A stretch of 64,000 bases of DNA, from contig NZ_FONV01000002.1 in assembly GCF_900113015.1 (NCBI RefSeq), positions 124,001 to 188,000 of the forward strand. The letters are read 5' to 3'. The notes below the pieces were generated by a model. That model ran no database searches, had not been told where the DNA came from, and saw only the letters and a list, made by a program, of their open reading frames with translations. This DNA is from Actinoplanes philippinensis. GTDB taxonomy: Bacteria; Actinomycetota; Actinomycetes; Mycobacteriales; Micromonosporaceae. The position numbers and the translations under genes were made by a program. Below, in pieces: positions 6,618 to 16,573 of this stretch. The first letter of the stretch is position 1. Every line of letters begins with the position of its first letter.

Positions 6618-7274
6618 CTATCCGGCCGGGGTGACGATGCCCTGCTCGTAGGCGTGGATCACCGCCTGGACCCGGTCGCGCAGACCCAGCTTGGCCAGGA
6701 TGCTGCCGACATGCGTCTTGATCGTGTGCTCACTGAGCGTCAGGTCGGCGGCGATCTCGGCGTTGCTGCGGCCCCGGGCCAGAAGAGTGAGGACCTCCAG
6801 CTCACGGCCGGTCAGCGGGGTGCTCGCCGGGCGGCGCGGCTCGCGCGGGGCGACCCGCAGGAACTCGGCCAGCAGATGCCGGGTCGCCCGCGGGGTGAGC
6901 AGCGCGTCCCCGTCGGCGACCACCCGGATCGCGGTGATCAGCTCGGCCCGCGGCGTGTCCTTCACGAGAAACCCGGACGCCCCGGCCCGCAACGAGTCCA
7001 GCACGTTCTCGTCCAGGTCGAACGTGGTCAGGATGATCACCCGCGCGTCCGGGGCGGCGGCCACCGTCTCGGCGGTGGCACGGATCCCGTCGACGCCGGG
7101 CATCCGCAGATCCATCAACACCACATCGGCCCGTGTCTCGAGCACCAGCGCGGCCGCGCCCGCCCCGTCGGCGAGCTCACCGACCACCTCGATCCCCGGC
7201 TGCGCCGCCAGGATCAGCCCCAGCCCGACCCGCACCAGCTCCTCGTCATCGACCAGCACGACGCGGATCGTCAT
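6618..7274 (-). CDS. NarL/LuxR-family response regulator
   Basis: A 218-residue two-component regulator. The receiver domain starts MTIRVVLVDDEELVR (acidic pair DD), has the phosphorylation Asp in VVLMDLRMPGVDG, the switch Thr in VIILTTF and the Lys in FLVKDTP. The C-terminal LuxR helix-turn-helix is LTGRELEVLTLLARGRSN followed by LSEHTIKTHV. The ATG overlaps the TGA of the upstream kinase gene (ATGA, 7271-7274), giving translational coupling and naming the kinase as its partner. Family knowledge: phosphorylated dimers bind promoter DNA, often of an adjacent transporter or the operon itself. No obvious target gene adjoins it; the downstream neighbour is the small membrane protein. Confidence 0.93.
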   Translation of the reverse strand: MTIRVVLVDDEELVRVGLGLILAAQPGIEVVGELADGAGAAALVLETRADVVLMDLRMPGVDGIRATAETVAAAPDARVIILTTFDLDENVLDSLRAGASGFLVKDTPRAELITAIRVVADGDALLTPRATRHLLAEFLRVAPREPRRPASTPLTGRELEVLTLLARGRSNAEIAADLTLSEHTIKTHVGSILAKLGLRDRVQAVIHAYEQGIVTPAG

Positions 7275-8908
7275 CGGCCGTACCCCCTGGTCAGTCGCAG
7301 GGTGACCAGCCACCGGTCCCCGACCGGCCCCTGCTCCACCGTGCCCCCGACGGCGGTCGCGCGCTCCCGCATGTTCCGCAGCCCCTGCCCTTCGGTGACC
7401 GGCCCGCCCCCGTCCCCCCGATGATTGCCGACCGTGATCCACGGCCCGTCGTCCCCCTCGGCCATCTCCACCGTGACGGCCGCGCCGGGCGCATGCTTCA
7501 GCGCGTTGGTGAGCGCCTCCTGAACGATCCGGTAGGCGGCGAGCCCCGCCGCCCCACCGATCGGCGCGGCAAGCTCATCACGCAGCTCAGCCACGGTCCC
7601 GGCCCGCCGGACGGTCGCCACCAGCGCCGCGATGTCCCCACTTCCGGGCGGTTCCCGCAGCCCACCGGGGCCGCAGGCCCCCTCCGCCCCGCCGTCCACC
7701 AGTTCCCCCGCGCCCGAGGCCGCCGGCGAGTCCGCGGCACACGGCCTTTCCTCGCCGTCCACCGGTGCTTCCACGCCTGAGGCCGCCGATGCCGGCGTGG
7801 AGGAGCGCAGCGGGCCGAGAGTGGCACGCAGGTCAGCCATCGTGCGACGGCCGGTGGCGGCGATCAGCTCCAGGGTCGCGGGGTCCACCCGACCGGCCTC
7901 CGCGCCGGCGGCAGCGCCCTCGGCCAGCACGACCATGACCGCGACCGAATGCCCCAGCACGTCATGCATGTCTCGCGCGATCCGGTTACGTTCCTCGGCC
8001 GCGGCACGCTCGGCCTCGGCCGCGGCACGCTCCGACTCGGCGGCCGCCCTCCGGGCTTCGGCTGTCGCTCGTTCGGACTCCGCCGCGGCGCGTTCGGACT
8101 CGGCCGCCGCTCGCTCCGCCTCCGCCGTGGCTCGTTCGGACTCGGCTGTCGCTCGTTCGGACTCGGCCGTGGCTCGTTCGGTTTCGGCGTGGCGGAGGGC
8201 TCGTTCGGCGGCCATCCGCTCCTCGAACTGTCTCGTCTCGCGGCGGCGGGCAGCCGTCAGGGTGCCGGCCAGCCAGGCCACGACCGCGGCCAGGGCGAGG
8301 TTGAGCCATTCGTAGGGCTCGTACTCGGCGGGGCGCAGCATCAACACAGCCGGCGCGGCGAGCAGCGCGAGCGTCAGAAAGGCATACGAGTGGGTACGCC
8401 GTCCGTAGGCGGCGATCGCGTGCAGGGCGACGAGTGGCCCGACCGGAACGAGCGGGCTGGGCCACCCCGCGAGGCCGAAGATCACCGCACTGGGTGCGAT
8501 GAGCAGATTGGTCAGCAGTGGACTCTGCCGGCGCAGAGCCAGCGGAAGAGTATTCCCGGCCAGCACAACGAAAGCCCAGCCCGGAGCGGCATCGGCGGTC
8601 AGCGGCAGCAGACTGATCACGAACGCCAGAACCGCGATCCCACCGTCGACCGCAAGCTGCCCCCGCCGAGCGACCGTCCCCAGCTCGAACTGTCGCGTCA
8701 CCATCTGCCGAACCCGGTCCACGGGCGCTTCCACCCCGGCGCCCGGCCCGTCCCCTCCTTCCGCCGCCACCGACCCGGCACCCGGCCCGTCCCGGCCATC
8801 CGCCACCACCGACCCGGCACCCGACCCGTCCCGGCCATCCGCCACCACCGACCCGGCACCCGGCCCGTCCCGGCCATCCGCCACCACCGACCCGGCCTTC
8901 GTCTCCAT
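7271..8908 (-). CDS. Sensor histidine kinase with tandem-repeat N-terminus and perfect heptad linker
   Basis: A 545-residue HisKA_3/DesK-type kinase. The ATG at 8908 follows a good GGGAGGGGGCGGG site. Residues 5-56 are four copies of a 13-residue unit (AGSVVADGRDGPG-like). About five membrane helices follow (for example GIAVLAFVISLLPLTA, TLPLAL, LLIAPSAVIFGLA). Nine consecutive heptads of the ERATAES type then form a charged coiled coil that runs straight into RNRIARDMHDVLGHS, which holds the phospho-His. A 60-residue Ala/Gly/Glu-rich insert separates the dimerisation helices from the ATPase domain. The N box (EALTNALKHA) is intact, while the G1 box is non-canonical (VGNHRGDGGG). It is translationally coupled to its regulator. 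The ligand is unknown. Confidence 0.9.
   Translation of the reverse strand: METKAGSVVADGRDGPGAGSVVADGRDGSGAGSVVADGRDGPGAGSVAAEGGDGPGAGVEAPVDRVRQMVTRQFELGTVARRGQLAVDGGIAVLAFVISLLPLTADAAPGWAFVVLAGNTLPLALRRQSPLLTNLLIAPSAVIFGLAGWPSPLVPVGPLVALHAIAAYGRRTHSYAFLTLALLAAPAVLMLRPAEYEPYEWLNLALAAVVAWLAGTLTAARRRETRQFEERMAAERALRHAETERATAESERATAESERATAEAERAAAESERAAAESERATAEARRAAAESERAAAEAERAAAEERNRIARDMHDVLGHSVAVMVVLAEGAAAGAEAGRVDPATLELIAATGRRTMADLRATLGPLRSSTPASAASGVEAPVDGEERPCAADSPAASGAGELVDGGAEGACGPGGLREPPGSGDIAALVATVRRAGTVAELRDELAAPIGGAAGLAAYRIVQEALTNALKHAPGAAVTVEMAEGDDGPWITVGNHRGDGGGPVTEGQGLRNMRERATAVGGTVEQGPVGDRWLVTLRLTRGYGR
7991..8179 (-). repeat. 21-bp tandem repeats encoding nine heptads of a kinase linker
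   Basis: Nine consecutive 21-bp units encode E/R-R-A-A/T-A-E-S/A/E heptads without interruption. The register is constant up to the H-box helix, which suggests a rigid coiled-coil extension expanded by in-frame duplication. Confidence 0.85.
8741..8896 (-). repeat. 39-bp tandem repeats at the kinase N-terminus
   Basis: Four in-frame 39-bp units code for 13 residues each (SVVADGRDGPGAG-like). The first three are almost identical and the fourth has diverged (SVAAEGGDGPGAG). They sit between the start codon and the first membrane helix, so the repeat should be cytoplasmic and disordered. Confidence 0.8.
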
Positions 8909-9066: not shown

Positions 9067-11094
9067 TCAGGGTGAGGACGAAGGGCCTGGGTCCGACCAG
9101 TCGGGTGGGTCGGCGGGGTGCAGCTGGGGATCGTCGACGAAGAAGGTCCGGACCCTGCCGACGGGCGTGAGCGGGCCCTCGAATCGCACCGTGACACGGC
9201 CGATGCCGCTGCCCTGAACCCAGCCGGGGCCGTGCTCGTCATGCCGGACGTCCTGACCGGAGCGCCAGACCGGAACAGGCGACACGGCCGCCACACCCGA
9301 CGGCGGCACCACCGCGACCGGCCCGGCACCCGACGGCACCGCCGCGACCGGCCCGGCACCCGACGGCACCGCCGCGCCGGGGCCGTCAGCAGACGACGAA
9401 GCGAACGCCTGACCGGTTGCGACCGCGGAGGTAGCGAACCCAGCGGTAGACGACGATCCCGGCCGACCAGCGCCGACAGCGGGCGGCGACTCCACCGGAC
9501 CAGCTCCCGTAGCGGAGGTGGACCCTTGCAGGCCGGCCCCGGTAGCGGCCAACGGGCCGGCCCCGGTAGCGGGCGCGGACCCCACCGGAGGAATCCCCGT
9601 AACGGGCGCGGACCCCATCGAACCGGGCCCGGCGGTGGACGGAGCCCCCGGCGGATCAGACCCGGCAGCAGGCCGCGCCCGTAGTGGACCAGCCCCACCG
9701 TCTGGCGATGCCGAGACGGACGCAGCATCGTCGGATGGCTGCTCCGACGAGTCCGGATGTGGGACAGACGCCGGCGAAGCGGATCCCGTGCTCGGCGCTG
9801 ATCCCGGAACAACCGGACCGGCGGCGCTCGATCCCGGCGAGACGGGCTCCGCGTCGAGTGGCCGGCCTGACGGTGGCTGCGAGGTAGCGACTCGGGACGG
9901 CGTCGGAGCGGGTGGGGCGAACGACGGCGCGGCGAACGACGGCGCGGCGGACGGCGGCGCGGCGGACGGCGGGGTGGGTGCGGGGTCCTCGGGGAAGCTG
10001 AACGGTGGTGGATCCTCGCCGGCGGCGGAGAAGAGGTCGTCCTGGGCGAAGTCGTACAGCGTGGAGACACCCACGCCGAGGAGGCGGATACCGCCCGCGG
10101 TGGGGACCTCGGTCAGCAGGCGGCGGGCCAGCTGGGCGATCAGGGCGCCGTCGTCGGTGGGCTGGTCGCGGGTCACGGCTCGGGTGACCGTGGTGAAGTC
10201 GGGGTGACGGACCTTGATGTTCACGGTGCGGCCGGTCAGGCCGCTGCGGCGGAGACGGCCGGCCACCCGGGCGGAGAGCAGGTCCAGCTCGTGGGTCAGG
10301 CGGGCCGGATCGCGGACGTCTATGTCGAAGGTCTCCTCGGCGGAGACGGACTTGGCCTCCCGGGAGCTGACCACCGGACGTGGGTCGTCGGCCCGGGCCA
10401 GGCGGAACAGGCCGTGGCCGTGCGCGGTGCCGAACCAGTCGACCAGATCCTCCAAGGAGGCGGCGGCCAGGTCGCCGACCGTGCGGATGCCGGACCGGTG
10501 CAGGCGCTGCTCGGTGGCGGGTCCGACGCCGCCGAGGCGGCGGACCGGCAGCGGGTGCAGGACCAGCAGTTCGTCGCCGGGTGGGACGATCGTGAGGCCG
10601 TCGGGCTTGTGCAGGTCGGAGCCGATCTTGGCGAGCAGTTTGCTGGAGGCGGCCCCGATCGAGCCGGTCACCCCGCCGGTGGCGGCGGCGATGTCCGCTT
10701 TCAGCCGGAGAGCCAGCGCGGTCACCGCGGGGACGCTCAGGTCGGTGCCGGTGGGGGCCAGATCGATGTACGCCTCGTCGATGCTGACCTGCTCGACCAG
10801 CGGCGACACCCCGGCCAGCAGCTCCATGACGACCGCGCTGGTCTTCTGATACGCCGGGAACCGTGGCGACAGGAAAGCCGTGTTCGGCGGACAGCGACGA
10901 CGGGCCTGGGCCATCGGCATCGCCGAGTGGGCGCCGAAAGCCCGCGCCTCATACGACGCCGTGGACACCACACCACGCCCGGCCACACCGCCGACGATCA
11001 CCGGCTTGCCGCGCAGCGACGGCTTGTCGCGCTGCTCGACCGCGGCGAACATCGCGTCGAGGTCGACGTGGAGAATGCTCGCTTCCCTCCTCAC
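9067..11094 (-). CDS. dinB: DNA polymerase IV (Y family) with long low-complexity insert
   Basis: A 675-residue translesion polymerase, where typical DinB is 350-420 residues. The N-terminal polymerase core is complete: HVDLDAMFAAVE (first catalytic Asp; the steric-gate position is Phe), SYEARAFG, SIDEAYID (catalytic Asp-Glu), the VGPATEQRL helix-hairpin-helix and a little-finger domain (GRTVNIKVRHPDFTTVTRAVT). After about residue 350 comes roughly 220 residues of Pro/Ala/Ser/Gly, including three 10-residue VPSGAGPVAA-type repeats. A compact C-terminal module follows (VWRSGQDVRHDEHGPGWVQG, VTVRFEGPLTPVGRVRTF), which other actinobacterial DinB proteins also carry. It starts at GTG 11094. No classical beta-clamp motif is obvious. 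It is probably SOS or damage-related, but I see no clear SOS box. Confidence 0.92.
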   Translation of the reverse strand: MRREASILHVDLDAMFAAVEQRDKPSLRGKPVIVGGVAGRGVVSTASYEARAFGAHSAMPMAQARRRCPPNTAFLSPRFPAYQKTSAVVMELLAGVSPLVEQVSIDEAYIDLAPTGTDLSVPAVTALALRLKADIAAATGGVTGSIGAASSKLLAKIGSDLHKPDGLTIVPPGDELLVLHPLPVRRLGGVGPATEQRLHRSGIRTVGDLAAASLEDLVDWFGTAHGHGLFRLARADDPRPVVSSREAKSVSAEETFDIDVRDPARLTHELDLLSARVAGRLRRSGLTGRTVNIKVRHPDFTTVTRAVTRDQPTDDGALIAQLARRLLTEVPTAGGIRLLGVGVSTLYDFAQDDLFSAAGEDPPPFSFPEDPAPTPPSAAPPSAAPSFAAPSFAPPAPTPSRVATSQPPSGRPLDAEPVSPGSSAAGPVVPGSAPSTGSASPASVPHPDSSEQPSDDAASVSASPDGGAGPLRARPAAGSDPPGAPSTAGPGSMGSAPVTGIPPVGSAPATGAGPLAATGAGLQGSTSATGAGPVESPPAVGAGRPGSSSTAGFATSAVATGQAFASSSADGPGAAVPSGAGPVAAVPSGAGPVAVVPPSGVAAVSPVPVWRSGQDVRHDEHGPGWVQGSGIGRVTVRFEGPLTPVGRVRTFFVDDPQLHPADPPDWSDPGPSSSP

Positions 11095-11298: not shown

Positions 11299-11579
11299 CG
11301 GCGACACAAGGGCGATGCGCGACGGCGGCATGAAGCGCTCCTCTCCAGCGGATTCCGCCTTCGGCGGATGGTGGCGGAGAGTAGATGCACACCCTTGGGA
11401 GCGATAACAAAAACTCGCCGGGCGACTCCGGGAGCCGCTTTACAGGTCTCCGAAAGCTGTGCCACGATACGGCTCGATCAGAAGTAAGTGGACATTCTCC
11501 CAGCTAGCGGGCACACAACACGCATTATCTTCGATATCTGCCGGTCGAGCGTGGCCATTTCGACGAAGGAAGCGAGACG
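11299..11579. other. Gene-free stretch upstream of the ECF sigma gene
   Basis: This is the remainder of the 485-bp gap between dinB and the sigma-factor gene. It contains a small hairpin around 11358-11371 (ccgcc-ttc-ggcgg) and a less GC-rich segment at 11400-11550 that probably carries the promoter of the gene at 11580. I cannot assign -35/-10 boxes with confidence. No convincing small ORF is present. Confidence 0.45.
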
Positions 11580-13667
11580 GTGACGGACAGTCAGATCACG
11601 GCGGCGCGGGGCGTGTCGGACCTGGTCCGCGACGCGCAGCGTGGGAGCGTTCCCGCCCTGGATCAGCTGATCACCGGCCACCTGTCGCTGATCTACAACA
11701 TCATCGGCCGCGCGCTGCACGGGCATCCGGATGTCGACGATCTGGTGCAGGACACCATGCTCCAGGCGATCAACGCGCTGGGCGGGCTGCGTGACCCGGA
11801 GCGGTTCCGGTCGTGGCTGGTGGCGATCGCGTACCGCCGGGTCCAGATGCACATGCGTACCCGGAAGATGACCCTGATGCGTCACCTGCCGGAGCCGGTG
11901 GACGTGCCGGACCCGGGCGGCGATTTCGCCGAGCGGACCACCGCCGAGCTGGTCGTCGCCGATCAGCGGCGGGAGCTGGCCGAGGCTACCCGCTGGCTGG
12001 AGGACGGTGACCGGGAGCTGCTGGGCCTCTGGTGGCAGGAGGCGCGCGGCGATCTGACCCGAGCCGAGCTGGCGGCGGCGCTGGAGGTGAAGCCGAAGCA
12101 CGCCGCGGTCAAGGTGCAGCGGATGAAGGCGCAGCTGGAGCTCTCCCGCGGGGTGGTACGGGCGTTGCGGGCGAAGCCGATCTGCCCGGAGCTGTCGAGC
12201 ACGATCCGGTTCTGGGACGGGACCGTCGACTCGGTGTGGCGCAAGCGGCTGGCCCGGCATGTGCGGGCCTGCCCGAAGTGCCACTTCCACCAGGCCGGGA
12301 TGGTGTCGCCGGAGCGGCTGCTGCTGGGGATGGCCGCGCTGCCGGTGCCGGTGGCGCTGTGGGCCGGCATCCAGGCGGCGTTCCAGGCCGGGGCGACCGC
12401 TCCGCCGCTGATCACGACCGCCTCGCTGGCCGTTCACGTGGCGCAGCACAAGACGCTGGTCGCGGCGGTGGCGGCGGCGACCGTGGCGGTGGGCGGCGGG
12501 TTGACGTTCGCGGTGGTGAACGAGCCGGACACGCCGCGGGCCGCCGCTCCCCCGCCGGCTGCCGCGACGACTCCGCCGGCGCTGCCGTCGGCGGCCGCGC
12601 CCACGCCGACCGCCGGCGCCGTGAGCAAGGCGCCGGTGGCCCCGAGGGCCGGCACGACGGACATCTTCGTGGCGCCGGGTGGTTCGGACGACGGGGACGG
12701 CACGCAGGCCCGGCCGTACGCGTCGGTGGCCAAGGCCGTCGCGGTGGTGAAGCCGGGGCAGACGATCGCCTTACGCGCCGGCACCTACCGCCCGGCCGGT
12801 CCGATTTCGATCACCACGAGCGGCACCGCGGAAAAGCCGATCACGATCAGTGGGTACGGCTCCGAGCGCGCCATCATCGACGCCTCGGCGATCCCCGCGG
12901 ACCAGTGGGCGATCACTCAGAAGGCGTCGTTCTGGACGGTGCGGGATCTGGAGGTCACCGGCGCCCGCAACGCCACCTGGACCTGCCTGGCCTGTACGAA
13001 CAACACGTTCCAGCGGCTGACCGTGCACGACAACGCGGGGGTGGGGCTGATGCTGCGCGACGCCGGCACCGCGGCCAATCAGGTGCTGGACAGCGACTTC
13101 TACGCCAACCAGGGTTCGGGGCTGTCGGTGCAGTTCGGTGACGGCGACGGCAACGTGGTGCGCGGCAACCGCGCGTGGGGCAACCGCCAGGACGGCATCG
13201 ACCTGGGCTCGTTCCGCAGCCGGGTGGACGTGCAGCACAACTGGTCGTACCGCAACGGCGCCAACGGGTTCGCGCTGGGTGGCGGCAGTCCGGCGGCGGC
13301 AGCCGCGCACACGGTCCGGCACAACGCCGCGTGGGGCAACGACGGGCACGGTTTCGTCGACGAGGGCAACACGGCCGCGATCGAGCTGGCCAACAACACC
13401 GCTTTCGCGAACACCGGGCTGGGTTTCTCGATGACGACAGCGCCGGCGGTGCTGCGCAACAACGCGGCGGCCGGCAACGACCGTGGCGATCAGGCGCTGT
13501 CGGCCGGGGCGAAGCCGAACAACAACAGCTGGCAGGTGGACGCGTTCCCGTTCCGCTCCGAGGACGCGTCGGTGGCCGAGGGCGCCCGGACGGCCGCCGG
13601 CGGGCTGCCCGGCACCGACTACCTGTCGACCGGCAACGGCATCGGGGCCTCGATGTCCGGCGAGTAA
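11580..13667 (+). CDS. Membrane-tethered ECF sigma factor fused to an extracytoplasmic parallel beta-helix
   Basis: A 695-residue single protein from GTG 11580 (ggaag site upstream). Residues ~10-95 form sigma region 2 (HPDVDDLVQDTMLQA, RFRSWLVAIAYRRV). Residues ~135-190 form region 4 (DRELLGLWWQEARG, AELAAALEVKPKHAAVKV). A zinc-type H227-x3-C231-x2-C234 motif follows, as in ZAS anti-sigma factors. One membrane helix lies at about 292-313, then a Pro/Ala/Thr stalk, and from residue 361 DIFVAPGGSDDGDGTQARPY opens a right-handed beta-helix with repeated N-N-x-A/V rungs, resembling PL9 pectate-lyase-like proteins. The topology puts sigma inside and the beta-helix outside. Family knowledge: some actinobacterial ECF groups (ECF53-like) have C-terminal membrane and carbohydrate-related extensions. 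It is probably co-transcribed with the two genes downstream (42-bp gap). Confidence 0.88.
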   Translation: MTDSQITAARGVSDLVRDAQRGSVPALDQLITGHLSLIYNIIGRALHGHPDVDDLVQDTMLQAINALGGLRDPERFRSWLVAIAYRRVQMHMRTRKMTLMRHLPEPVDVPDPGGDFAERTTAELVVADQRRELAEATRWLEDGDRELLGLWWQEARGDLTRAELAAALEVKPKHAAVKVQRMKAQLELSRGVVRALRAKPICPELSSTIRFWDGTVDSVWRKRLARHVRACPKCHFHQAGMVSPERLLLGMAALPVPVALWAGIQAAFQAGATAPPLITTASLAVHVAQHKTLVAAVAAATVAVGGGLTFAVVNEPDTPRAAAPPPAAATTPPALPSAAAPTPTAGAVSKAPVAPRAGTTDIFVAPGGSDDGDGTQARPYASVAKAVAVVKPGQTIALRAGTYRPAGPISITTSGTAEKPITISGYGSERAIIDASAIPADQWAITQKASFWTVRDLEVTGARNATWTCLACTNNTFQRLTVHDNAGVGLMLRDAGTAANQVLDSDFYANQGSGLSVQFGDGDGNVVRGNRAWGNRQDGIDLGSFRSRVDVQHNWSYRNGANGFALGGGSPAAAAAHTVRHNAAWGNDGHGFVDEGNTAAIELANNTAFANTGLGFSMTTAPAVLRNNAAAGNDRGDQALSAGAKPNNNSWQVDAFPFRSEDASVAEGARTAAGGLPGTDYLSTGNGIGASMSGE

Positions 13668-13709: not shown

Positions 13710-14771
13710 ATGCACTCCGCGATCACGGTGACCCCGGCGCAGCTGCCCGACCTGCTCCTGCATGTCGCGGTGGCCCGGCCGGTGTTCCTGTGGGGCGCTC
13801 CCGGGATCGGCAAGAGCTCGCTGGTCCGTGACTTCGCCGCCTCGCTGGGGCTGGAGTGCGTCACCCTGGTCGGCACCCAGCTGGCCGCCGAGGACCTGAT
13901 CGGGGTGCCGGAGCTGCACGACGGCCGCAGCCGGTTCGCGCCGCCGGAGTCGATCGCGCGCGACGAGCCGTACTGCCTGTTCCTGGACGAGCTGAACTCG
14001 TCGAGCCCGGAGGTGCAGAAGGCGTTCTACTCGCTGATCCTGGACCGCCGGATCGGCGCCTACGAGCTGCCGGCCGGGTCGATCGTGATCGGCGCCGGCA
14101 ACCGGACCAGCGACAACGCGCTCGCCCGCCCGATGGCCTCGGCGCTGGTCAACCGGCTGATCCACGTGCACCTGCGGGCGTCCTGGGCGGACTGGTCGGC
14201 CTGGGCGGGCGACGCCGGCATCCACCACTGGGTGACCGGCTACCTCACCGAGCGCCCGGATCACCTGTGGTCGGCGCCGCCCAAGGTGGAGGAGGCATTC
14301 TCCACCCCGCGCAGCTGGCACATGCTCTCCGACGCGCTGCGTTCCTACGGCGACGACATCAGCGAGGAGACGCTGGGCCTGCTGGCGGCGGGCACGCTCA
14401 GCCCGGCGCACGCGACCGCCTTCGGCGGCTACGTCAAGATCGTCAGGCATCGGTACGGGCTGGACGCGATCGTCCGTGGCGACGCCGGCTGGCCGTCCCG
14501 CCCGGACGACCGGGACCTGCTCTACTTCCTGGCCGAGGCGTTCCGGGCCCGGCTGATCAAGGACCTGCCGGCCGGCAAGACGCACGCCTCGGCGAACCTG
14601 CGCCAGTTCGCGCACCGGGCCAAGGCGATGCTGGTGGAGCTGGCCGAGCTGTCGCTGGAGTGCGGCCGTCTGGTGATCGCCCCGGATCCGGACGGCAACC
14701 CGGTGCTGCCCGCCTGGTTCCTCGTCGAGGTGAGCCGTGACCTGCCGCGCCTGGTCGCGGCCCGGGCCTGA
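13710..14771 (+). CDS. MoxR-type AAA+ ATPase
   Basis: A 353-residue AAA+ protein. Walker A is GAPGIGKS (residues 29-36), Walker B is CLFLDE (89-94), and sensor 1 lies in IVIGAGNRTSDN. The substrate-facing C-terminal part is helical. The annotated ATG is 13710. A GGAGAGG site at 13689-13695 is 14 bp away, so a CTG at 13701 could be used instead. MoxR ATPases work with VWA-domain partners as chaperones or metal-insertion and maturation machines. The next gene, 8 bp downstream, is exactly such a partner. The gene upstream is the membrane ECF sigma factor. The client of this pair is unknown. Confidence 0.9.
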   Translation: MHSAITVTPAQLPDLLLHVAVARPVFLWGAPGIGKSSLVRDFAASLGLECVTLVGTQLAAEDLIGVPELHDGRSRFAPPESIARDEPYCLFLDELNSSSPEVQKAFYSLILDRRIGAYELPAGSIVIGAGNRTSDNALARPMASALVNRLIHVHLRASWADWSAWAGDAGIHHWVTGYLTERPDHLWSAPPKVEEAFSTPRSWHMLSDALRSYGDDISEETLGLLAAGTLSPAHATAFGGYVKIVRHRYGLDAIVRGDAGWPSRPDDRDLLYFLAEAFRARLIKDLPAGKTHASANLRQFAHRAKAMLVELAELSLECGRLVIAPDPDGNPVLPAWFLVEVSRDLPRLVAARA

Positions 14772-14779
14772 GGCCGGCC

Positions 14780-16573
14780 GTGGCGCGCAAGCCGAAGCGG
14801 AGCGTGGAGGCGGACCCGAACACGCTGGCCGTCCAGGAGGCGTGGGGTGAGCTGGCCGGGCACCCGCTGTTCGAGCCGATGACCGAATTCGATTATCCAC
14901 GGCCGCACGCGACGGTGGAGCTCGTGACGACGCCGCTGCCCGCTCCGGCCCGGGTGTCGGCGGACGGCTCGATCGTGGTGAGCCGGGCCCGCCGCCTGGA
15001 CAAGGAGGAGTGGCGCTGGGTGCTCGCGCACTGCCTGCTGCACCTGGGCTTCGACCATCTCGCGCCGCGGGCCGAGGAGGAGGACGACGCCGCTTTCCGG
15101 GCGGCGGCCTGCCTCGCGGTGGCCCGGTTCCAGCGGGCGGTGAAGCTGGGCCGGGAGCCGGATCCGCTGCCGGACCTGCTGCCCACGGCCGAGGAGGACG
15201 AGCTGGCGGCCCGGTGGCGCCGGCGGGGCGTGCCGCCGGAGCTGGCCGCCGCGCCCGACCTGGACCTGACCCCGTTCCGGTGCCGGCCGGGCGCCGAGCC
15301 GCGCTGGCCGGAGCGGTTCGCGCTGGGCCTGTCGGCGGCCGCGGTGGCCGGGGTCGAGGTGGCCGGCGGCGCCCGTGAGTCGGTGACCGGCCGGGCCACC
15401 CGACGGGAGCCGTGGGATCGGGCGATGGGCTGGTTCCTCGGGTCGTACCCGCTGCTCGGCGGGGTGGCGGCCGGGTTCACCCTGGTCGCCGAGGGGCCGC
15501 TGGCCCGGGCGTGGGGCATCTCGATCGCGGCGGTGTCGGCGGAGGCCGGCGAGATCTACGTGAACCCGTGGCGGACGCTGAGCGAGGAGGAGTGGCGGTT
15601 CGTGCTGGCCCACGAGCTGCTGCACGTGGCGCTGCGGCACGCCGACCGGGGCGGCGGCCGGGACCCGTACCTGTGGAACGTCGCCTGCGACTTCGTGATC
15701 AACGGCTGGCTGGTGGAGATGGGGGTCGGCGTGCTGCCGGACGGGGTGCTGCACGATCCCGCGTTCGCCGGCTCGTCGGCCGAGCAGGTGTACGACCGGA
15801 TCGCCGGTGACCTGCGCCGGATGCGGAAGCTGTCGACGCTGCGCGGTCAGGGGGCCGGGGACATGCTCGGCGCCCCGCTGCCGTGGGCCGGGCGGCGGGG
15901 CGGCGGCGTGGACCTCGACGAGTACTGCCGCCGGGCTCTGCTGACCGGTTTCGCCTATCACCAGAGCAGTGGGCGGGGCCTGCTGCCGGCCGGGCTGGTC
16001 GCCGAGATCCGGGTTCTGGAGCAGCCGCCGGTGCCGTGGGACGTGCGGCTGGCCCGGTGGTTCGAGGAGTTCGTGCCGCTGGTCGAGCCGGTCCGGACGT
16101 ACGCCCGGCCCTCGCGCCGCCAGGCCGCCACCCCGGACATTCCGCGTCCCGGGCGGCACCGGCCGGAGGAGGCGGTCCGGCGCAGCACGTTCGGTGTGGT
16201 GGTGGACACGTCCGGCTCGATGGGCACGGTGCTGATGGGCAAGGCGCTCGGCGCGATAGCGTCCTACGCGACGGCCCGGGACGTGCCGGCCGCGCGGGTG
16301 GTGTTCTGCGACGCGGCCGCCTACGACGCCGGTTACCTGCCGGTGGACGGGATCGCCGGCCGGGTCCGGGTGCGCGGCCGCGGCGGCACCGTCCTGCAGC
16401 CCGCGATCGACCTGCTGGAACGCGCCGACGACTTCCCGCCGGGCGGCCCGATCCTGGTGATCACCGACGGCGAGTGCGACGTGCTGCGGATCCGGCGCCC
16501 GCACGCCTACCTCGTGCCGCGCGGCGCCCGCCTCCCGTTCACCCCGCGCGGCCCGGTGTTCACCGTCCGCTGA
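14780..16573 (+). CDS. VWA / metallopeptidase-like partner of MoxR (DUF2201 type) with duplicated zinc-site module
   Basis: A 597-residue cytosolic protein. The C-terminus is a VWA-like domain with the MIDAS motif DTSGSM (Asp476, Ser478, Ser480), RGRGGTVLQPA and ITDGECD. The middle part has the zinc-peptidase signature HELLHVALRH (His278, Glu279, His282), preceded by LSEEEWRFVLA. A very similar block occurs earlier, LDKEEWRWVLAHCLLHLGFDH (His84, Cys85, His88), in which the catalytic Glu is Cys, so the first copy should be inactive or structural. It starts at GTG 14780, 8 bp after the ATPase gene, and surely shares its transcript. By family precedent the VWA part binds client or ATPase in a metal-dependent way. 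Proteolysis by the second site is possible but untested. Confidence 0.88.
   Translation: MARKPKRSVEADPNTLAVQEAWGELAGHPLFEPMTEFDYPRPHATVELVTTPLPAPARVSADGSIVVSRARRLDKEEWRWVLAHCLLHLGFDHLAPRAEEEDDAAFRAAACLAVARFQRAVKLGREPDPLPDLLPTAEEDELAARWRRRGVPPELAAAPDLDLTPFRCRPGAEPRWPERFALGLSAAAVAGVEVAGGARESVTGRATRREPWDRAMGWFLGSYPLLGGVAAGFTLVAEGPLARAWGISIAAVSAEAGEIYVNPWRTLSEEEWRFVLAHELLHVALRHADRGGGRDPYLWNVACDFVINGWLVEMGVGVLPDGVLHDPAFAGSSAEQVYDRIAGDLRRMRKLSTLRGQGAGDMLGAPLPWAGRRGGGVDLDEYCRRALLTGFAYHQSSGRGLLPAGLVAEIRVLEQPPVPWDVRLARWFEEFVPLVEPVRTYARPSRRQAATPDIPRPGRHRPEEAVRRSTFGVVVDTSGSMGTVLMGKALGAIASYATARDVPAARVVFCDAAAYDAGYLPVDGIAGRVRVRGRGGTVLQPAIDLLERADDFPPGGPILVITDGECDVLRIRRPHAYLVPRGARLPFTPRGPVFTVR

Follow-up and report, generated by a model that had tools for sequence, protein, structure and literature searches.

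Genomes are already known to encode one-piece membrane sigma factors bearing carbohydrate-type domains (PMC8999054). Those of the Actinobacteria, namely groups ECF52/53 (and ECF48) of the extracytoplasmic function (ECF) sigmas, e.g., SCO4117, carry, besides the sigma part, a zinc segment together with membrane helices and domains of carbohydrate type (PMC8999054, PMC5826349, PMC10766802), and for SCO4117 the promoter motif in its own paper disagrees with an earlier prediction (PMC5826349). The only one-piece sigma named with a characterised activation is IutY (ECF243) of Pseudomonas putida (PMC8999054). In Clostridium thermocellum, SigI3/RsgI3 pairs a pectin-binding domain outside the cell with a sigma driving pl11 (rhamnogalacturonan lyase family 11, RGL11) and ce12 (PMC4711584), and RsgI6 of the SigI6/RsgI6 pair senses with a glycoside hydrolase family 10 (GH10) domain of very low activity (PMC4711584, PMC12203970). 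Here we analyse a gene from a 64,000-nucleotide stretch of Actinoplanes philippinensis (contig NZ_FONV01000002.1, positions 124,001 to 188,000; henceforth the window), which codes for an ECF sigma factor in one chain with an anti-sigma-like zinc segment, a predicted membrane helix and a beta-helix of the polysaccharide lyase family 9 (PL9) type. A short element, TGTTGTC-N15/16-CATCTAC, stands upstream of genes for pectin-digesting enzymes and is nearly restricted to genomes holding this sigma gene.

Judged against the description in PMC8999054, the protein has the architecture of ECF52/53, with an ECF sigma, a zinc segment, a membrane helix, a proline-rich linker and a carbohydrate-type domain, predicted to lie outside, in one actinobacterial chain, and with a cleavage expected to free the sigma part. 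It differs in its sensor, a disarmed PL9 beta-helix in place of their carbohydrate-binding module, in its predicted regulon of pectin enzymes, and in its element, TGTTGTC-N15-CATCTAC as against CSGYN-17-SRHA for SCO4117. With IutY it shares the union of a sigma and a membrane-bound anti-sigma, here a putative one, in one chain; IutY is activated by regulated intramembrane proteolysis, but it serves iron-siderophore signalling and is without a glycan domain. The closest system in function is SigI3/RsgI3, in which an outside pectin-binding domain likewise governs a sigma for pectin enzymes including RGL11. The two only work alike: sigma and anti-sigma are separate proteins there and a single chain here, SigI is not an ECF sigma of the type seen here, and the sensor folds are PA14 or GH10 there and PL9 here. 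A literature search, with most subscription papers outside its scope, found no PL9-fused sigma and no Actinoplanes pectin regulon. The parts of the gene, in window coordinates, are:

11580..13667, + strand: one-piece sigma factor gene, 695 residues, GTG start
11619..11879, + strand: sigma region 2, residues ~14-100
11964..12170, + strand: sigma region 4, residues ~129-197, from TIGR02937 and the CnrH alignment
12171..12374, + strand: zinc anti-sigma-like segment, residues 198-265, with C202, H227, C231 and C234
12453..12518, + strand: predicted membrane helix, residues 292-313
12519..12650, + strand: Pro/Ala-rich linker, residues 314-357
12651..13664, + strand: PL9-fold right-handed beta-helix, residues 358-695
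12984..12995, + strand: C469-x2-C472 in the beta-helix, kept in 140/140 aligned sequences
13272..13274, + strand: Ala565, at the position of the PL9 lysine by alignment

The gene is a single intact open frame, and its first residue is the alignment start for 13 of 14 genus orthologues. Pfam recovers Sigma70_r2 (residues 30-96, E 3e-11), Beta_helix (E 9e-15) and a Pel9A-like beta helix (E 5e-10). A search of the 695-residue protein against Pfam gave no separate Sigma70_r4 match; we count region 4 as covered because the NCBIfam sigma70-ECF profile TIGR02937 spans residues 26-187, and an alignment to CnrH spans residues 17-187. The sigma part thus consists of regions 2 and 4 without 1 and 3, as befits an ECF sigma, with region 4 assigned through the whole-length profile and the CnrH alignment. 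A database search returned 1222 relatives; all 120 among the matches listed, with identities reaching down to ~50%, have Pfam domains of the two kinds, sigma and beta-helix, so the fusion is not due to chance, and two separate genes or a frame error can be ruled out. The named relatives among them belong to Actinoplanes and related genera. We aligned the window protein with 139 full-length homologues (n = 140) out of 147 (P0003-P0149), omitting P0105, P0122 (partial), P0126 (PL1 variant), P0135, P0136, P0137, P0140 and P0146 (the last five without a listed sigma domain). Mean identity to the window protein is 0.70 for sigma region 2, 0.80 for region 4, 0.63 for the zinc segment, 0.52 for the membrane helix, 0.24 for the linker and 0.61 for the beta-helix; thus, both ends of the protein are under constraint and the linker is free of it. 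The one-chain fusion of sigma factor, clamp-like zinc segment, membrane helix and beta-helix of ~330 residues, which the initial annotation had proposed from the letters of the window, is supported, with the sigma domains and the beta-helix (~358-695) in one frame.

The H-x3-C-x2-C motif that had been noticed earlier corresponds to H227, C231 and C234, which are invariant (140/140), as is C202, the probable fourth zinc ligand. The four residues fit what we take to be the zinc-binding anti-sigma (ZAS) type of motif, i.e., H-x3-C-x2-C after an upstream His or Cys. An anti-sigma profile matches residues 216-330 weakly, below its cut-off (E 1e-4). Residues 292-313 (hydropathy 1.98) fit the single membrane helix previously suggested. 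The linker that follows, 61% Pro+Ala, is poorly conserved and disordered in the predicted model.

The beta-helix has the PL9 fold, and its top structural matches are the PL9 pectic lyases, by a wide margin over others; together with the Pel9A-like Pfam match, this upholds the PL9-like type assigned to it at the outset. NCBIfam profiles for PL9 lyases match ~355-679 with scores far below their own cut-offs. Compared with the lyases Pel9A (1RU4) and 5OLQ, it is tethered to a sigma factor and has lost the PL9 lysine, which we take to be catalytic: that position is Ala565 in the window protein, and Ala, Val, Thr and others, but Lys in none, occupy it across the 140 sequences. Two of the four aspartates that we presume to form the Ca site are kept in the window protein, and the C469/C472 pair is invariant. 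Because the presumed catalytic lysine is missing throughout, the beta-helix probably binds polysaccharide rather than cleaves it. Of the earlier suggestion that it might bind or cleave polysaccharide, binding thus stands as a probable prediction and cleavage becomes improbable. Its predicted ligand had been left as glycans of the cell wall or the environment; since the element described next precedes pectinase genes, plant pectin is now the candidate.

Among 30 genomes of the genus, 15 hold a full-length orthologue. In its more distant holders, the sigma gene stands head-to-head with a gene for a secreted pectinesterase, which in most cases also bears a ricin-type lectin domain (head-to-head in 7/15 by coordinates). 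In 12 of the 15 orthologue loci, the sigma gene is preceded by two boxes at a constant spacing, with no more than one mismatch; the null used here, drawn from the same loci with the true sites included, is a rough guide. Read toward the enzyme, the element is TTnTGTTGTC-N15-gCATCTAC in a base composition table of 42 sites, which takes spacer 15 only and excludes both unrelated sites and G015:C32 (locus not fetched); the enzyme starts ~55-120 bases past its first base, where the open reading frame finder called the start. In the 10.4 Mb of the window's genome, a loose form matches three times: once at the sigma gene, once beside an HTH_3 gene and once, on another contig, at a lectin-pectinesterase. 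In relatives, the element also lies upstream of genes for lectin-RGL11 enzymes, for a lectin-pectate lyase and for a GH43 enzyme.

We scanned the fixed pattern TGTTGTC-N15/16-CATCTAC over 67 genomes, 37 of them new (held-out). It has 52 exact sites, compared to 3 for the reversed pattern. The sigma gene was found in 38 of the 67, with G032 scored present on two matches in one frame and G049 on matches in frames of 713 and 347 residues. Exact sites occur in 32 of the 38 genomes with the sigma gene and in 2 of the 29 without, both of the latter within unrelated frames; the element is nearly restricted to genomes holding the gene. The held-out genomes alone give 19/23 versus 1/14 (Fisher 1.4e-5, indicative only, because the genomes are related). 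The 33 held-out sites comprise 19 at pectinesterases, 8 at RGL11, 3 at PL1, and one each at a GH54-type arabinofuranosidase, at a secreted-looking beta-helix protein and, in a genome without the sigma gene, at nothing related; the classing used tblastn against five enzyme references, with types given by Pfam, and 6/33 were also typed by Pfam directly. The 19 discovery sites, classed by the coordinates of Pfam pectinesterase matches and by Pfam, comprise 13 at pectinesterases, 2 at RGL11, 1 at PL1, 1 at GH43, 1 at the sigma gene alone and 1, in a genome without the gene, at an unrelated place. At five loci away from the sigma locus (L081, L089, L096, L153, L157), a sugar-kinase-like gene (MALVAGIDSSTQSCKV..., judged by eye) precedes the element and pectinesterase.

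From a PL9-fold sensor without its lysine and an element before pectin-digesting genes, we infer that the protein likely senses pectin outside the cell and activates those genes. At rest, the zinc segment would clamp the sigma regions. The beta-helix, held outside the cell on the Pro/Ala linker, would take pectin or a pectin fragment as its ligand, and intramembrane proteolysis, the mode of activation established for IutY and expected of ECF52/53, would free the sigma part. The freed sigma is predicted to transcribe genes of secreted pectin-digesting enzymes from TGTTGTC-N15/16-CATCTAC promoters, the element being read by the one-piece sigma itself and not by another regulator. As a whole, this sequence-based mechanism appears moderately probable to us. 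The sensor fold, the lost residue and the predicted regulon converge on one substrate, pectin, and the element is short. If correct, it would show how an enzyme can be turned into a sensor and coupled to transcription within one chain; the ligands of other fused sigmas could be read from their target genes, and single-gene pectin-responsive switches would come within reach.

Several observations weigh against such a pectin switch. Exact sites are absent from 6 of the 38 genomes with the sigma gene (G019, G026, G038, G045, G048, G058), although in two of these, G019 and G026, pectin genes have a copy with one mismatch. The window's genome has a single exact site, which lies at a pectinesterase; the copy beside the window's sigma gene is a variant facing dinB. 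In the 15 discovery genomes with the sigma gene, only 13 of 78 pectinesterase matches carry an exact site (0/21 in those without), so many pectinesterases lie outside the control of the element. G020, without the sigma gene, has a one-mismatch site at a pectinesterase; its locus L031 holds a relic beta-helix of the fused protein that has Ala in place of the lysine and, as far as the locus was fetched, lacks the sigma part. Element and sigma are linked by correlation across genomes that are themselves related. In hydrophobicity, residues 247-265 roughly equal the membrane helix (means 1.83 and 1.81 in the 140 homologues), and the structure models (predicted template modelling score 0.53-0.55) place sigma and anti-sigma unreliably relative to each other and fix neither the domain arrangement nor the packing of the anti-sigma.

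The partial coverage of pectinesterase genes, and the LacI-type boxes that also occur near the sigma gene and cellulase-type genes, would suit the element being the site of another pectin regulator, with the one-piece sigma a neighbour having some other regulon or ligand. We regard this as unlikely: two non-palindromic boxes with a fixed spacing of 15-16 bases look promoter-like, and the element both co-occurs with the sigma gene across the genomes (32/38 versus 2/29) and shares an intergenic region with it. It is still less probable that the beta-helix reads another glycan, such as the polymers of the cell's own wall, or is an active enzyme, the pectin genes downstream being coincidental. Related beta-helices work on many polymers and two presumed Ca-site aspartates are retained; against this stand the margin by which PL9 pectic lyases lead the structural matches, the loss of the lysine in every sequence, the pectin-type target genes and the relative P0126, whose replacement domain is likewise of a pectate lyase fold. 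Least probable of all is that residues 247-265 form a second membrane helix, which would leave the beta-helix cytoplasmic and blind to outside pectin. The near-equal hydropathy of the two stretches speaks for it, but the weak anti-sigma profile match runs through both, the 15 residues before helix 292-313 hold a mean of 1.41 Lys+Arg versus 0.32 in the 15 after it (140 sequences), and the linker beyond is Pro/Ala-rich. We read residues 247-265 as anti-sigma helix 4.

The region upstream of the sigma gene in the window shows three features:

11381..11409, - strand: one-mismatch element copy TGTTATC-N15-CATCTAC, facing away from the sigma gene
11396..11409, + strand: LacI-type operator-like box TGGGAGCGATAACA, from a genome scan; pattern in 9/15 orthologue and 0/18 paralogue upstream regions
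11439..11468, + strand: housekeeping-like sigma-gene promoter TTTACA-N18-CACGAT, similar in 13/15 orthologue upstream regions

Because the divergent neighbour in the window is dinB and the copy has one mismatch, this element is probably left over from a lost divergent pectinesterase. In A. utahensis, a lectin-pectinesterase with a TGTTATC copy lies between dinB and the sigma gene, and in three relatives with dinB at that place (L017, L018, L020) the element has decayed. Since the element points away from it, the sigma gene seems to be transcribed from a housekeeping-type promoter. Autoregulation through the element was rejected: at each of the 13 pectinesterase sites of the discovery set the element is directed toward the enzyme, and its orientation away from the sigma gene and the decay in the three relatives likewise argue against it.

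The LacI-type pattern gave 47 strand matches in a genome scan compared to 9 in a control, and among 18 box loci, 5 of 10 proteins tested are cellulose-type enzymes. The box at 11396-11409 is the sole copy of its kind in that scan and overlaps the element. Control of the sigma gene through TGGGAGCGNTNNCA, by a regulator presumably of the LacI/CebR type, was not adopted and is kept as a side lead. At L059-L076, a LacI-type box TGGGAGCGCTCCCA stands at several cellulose-type enzyme genes, with a weaker relative upstream of the sigma gene.

A scan of the genome's contigs gave 5 loci. The window's genome has four paralogous one-piece sigmas (L002, L003, L004, L005) that share residues ~10-350. Their C-termini are one Glyco_hydro_cc, two AbfB and one, in L004, that is unassigned and without a Pfam match. 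One AbfB sigma gene is followed by a lectin-GH62 gene and has a GH43 nearby; the other has a divergent lectin-GH10 gene and lies near a CBM2 protein (weak esterase matches) and a LacI regulator. For the remaining two, no carbohydrate-active enzyme was found among the only two neighbours typed. In P0126, a PL1 pectate lyase is attached to the same sigma half, and Gln replaces the first Arg of its RxPxxRxG motif. Tentatively, and with slightly more doubt than confidence, plant-feeding Actinobacteria may keep a kit of one-protein glycan switches, each of them a sigma anchored to a binding domain or a former enzyme for one plant polysaccharide and activating the working enzymes for that polysaccharide. 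The window protein would be the pectin switch. In the same genome it would be accompanied by two AbfB versions next to genes of arabinoxylan type (GH62, GH10), by one that has a glycosyl-hydrolase core and by one whose sensor is unassigned; in a relative, PL9 would have been exchanged for an equally disarmed PL1.

Directly downstream of the sigma gene (13710-16573), and in some orthologue loci, lie genes for a MoxR-type AAA ATPase and a DUF2201 metallopeptidase/VWA protein; MoxR occurs in 7/15 loci, and the pair was set aside as not essential to the system. The dinB-type polymerase at 9067-11094 (- strand) ends in a long low-complexity Ala/Pro/Ser/Gly stretch. A histidine kinase frame at 7271-8908 (- strand) carries tandem repeats at its N-terminus (GAGSVVADGRDG) and in its coiled coil (ERATAES).
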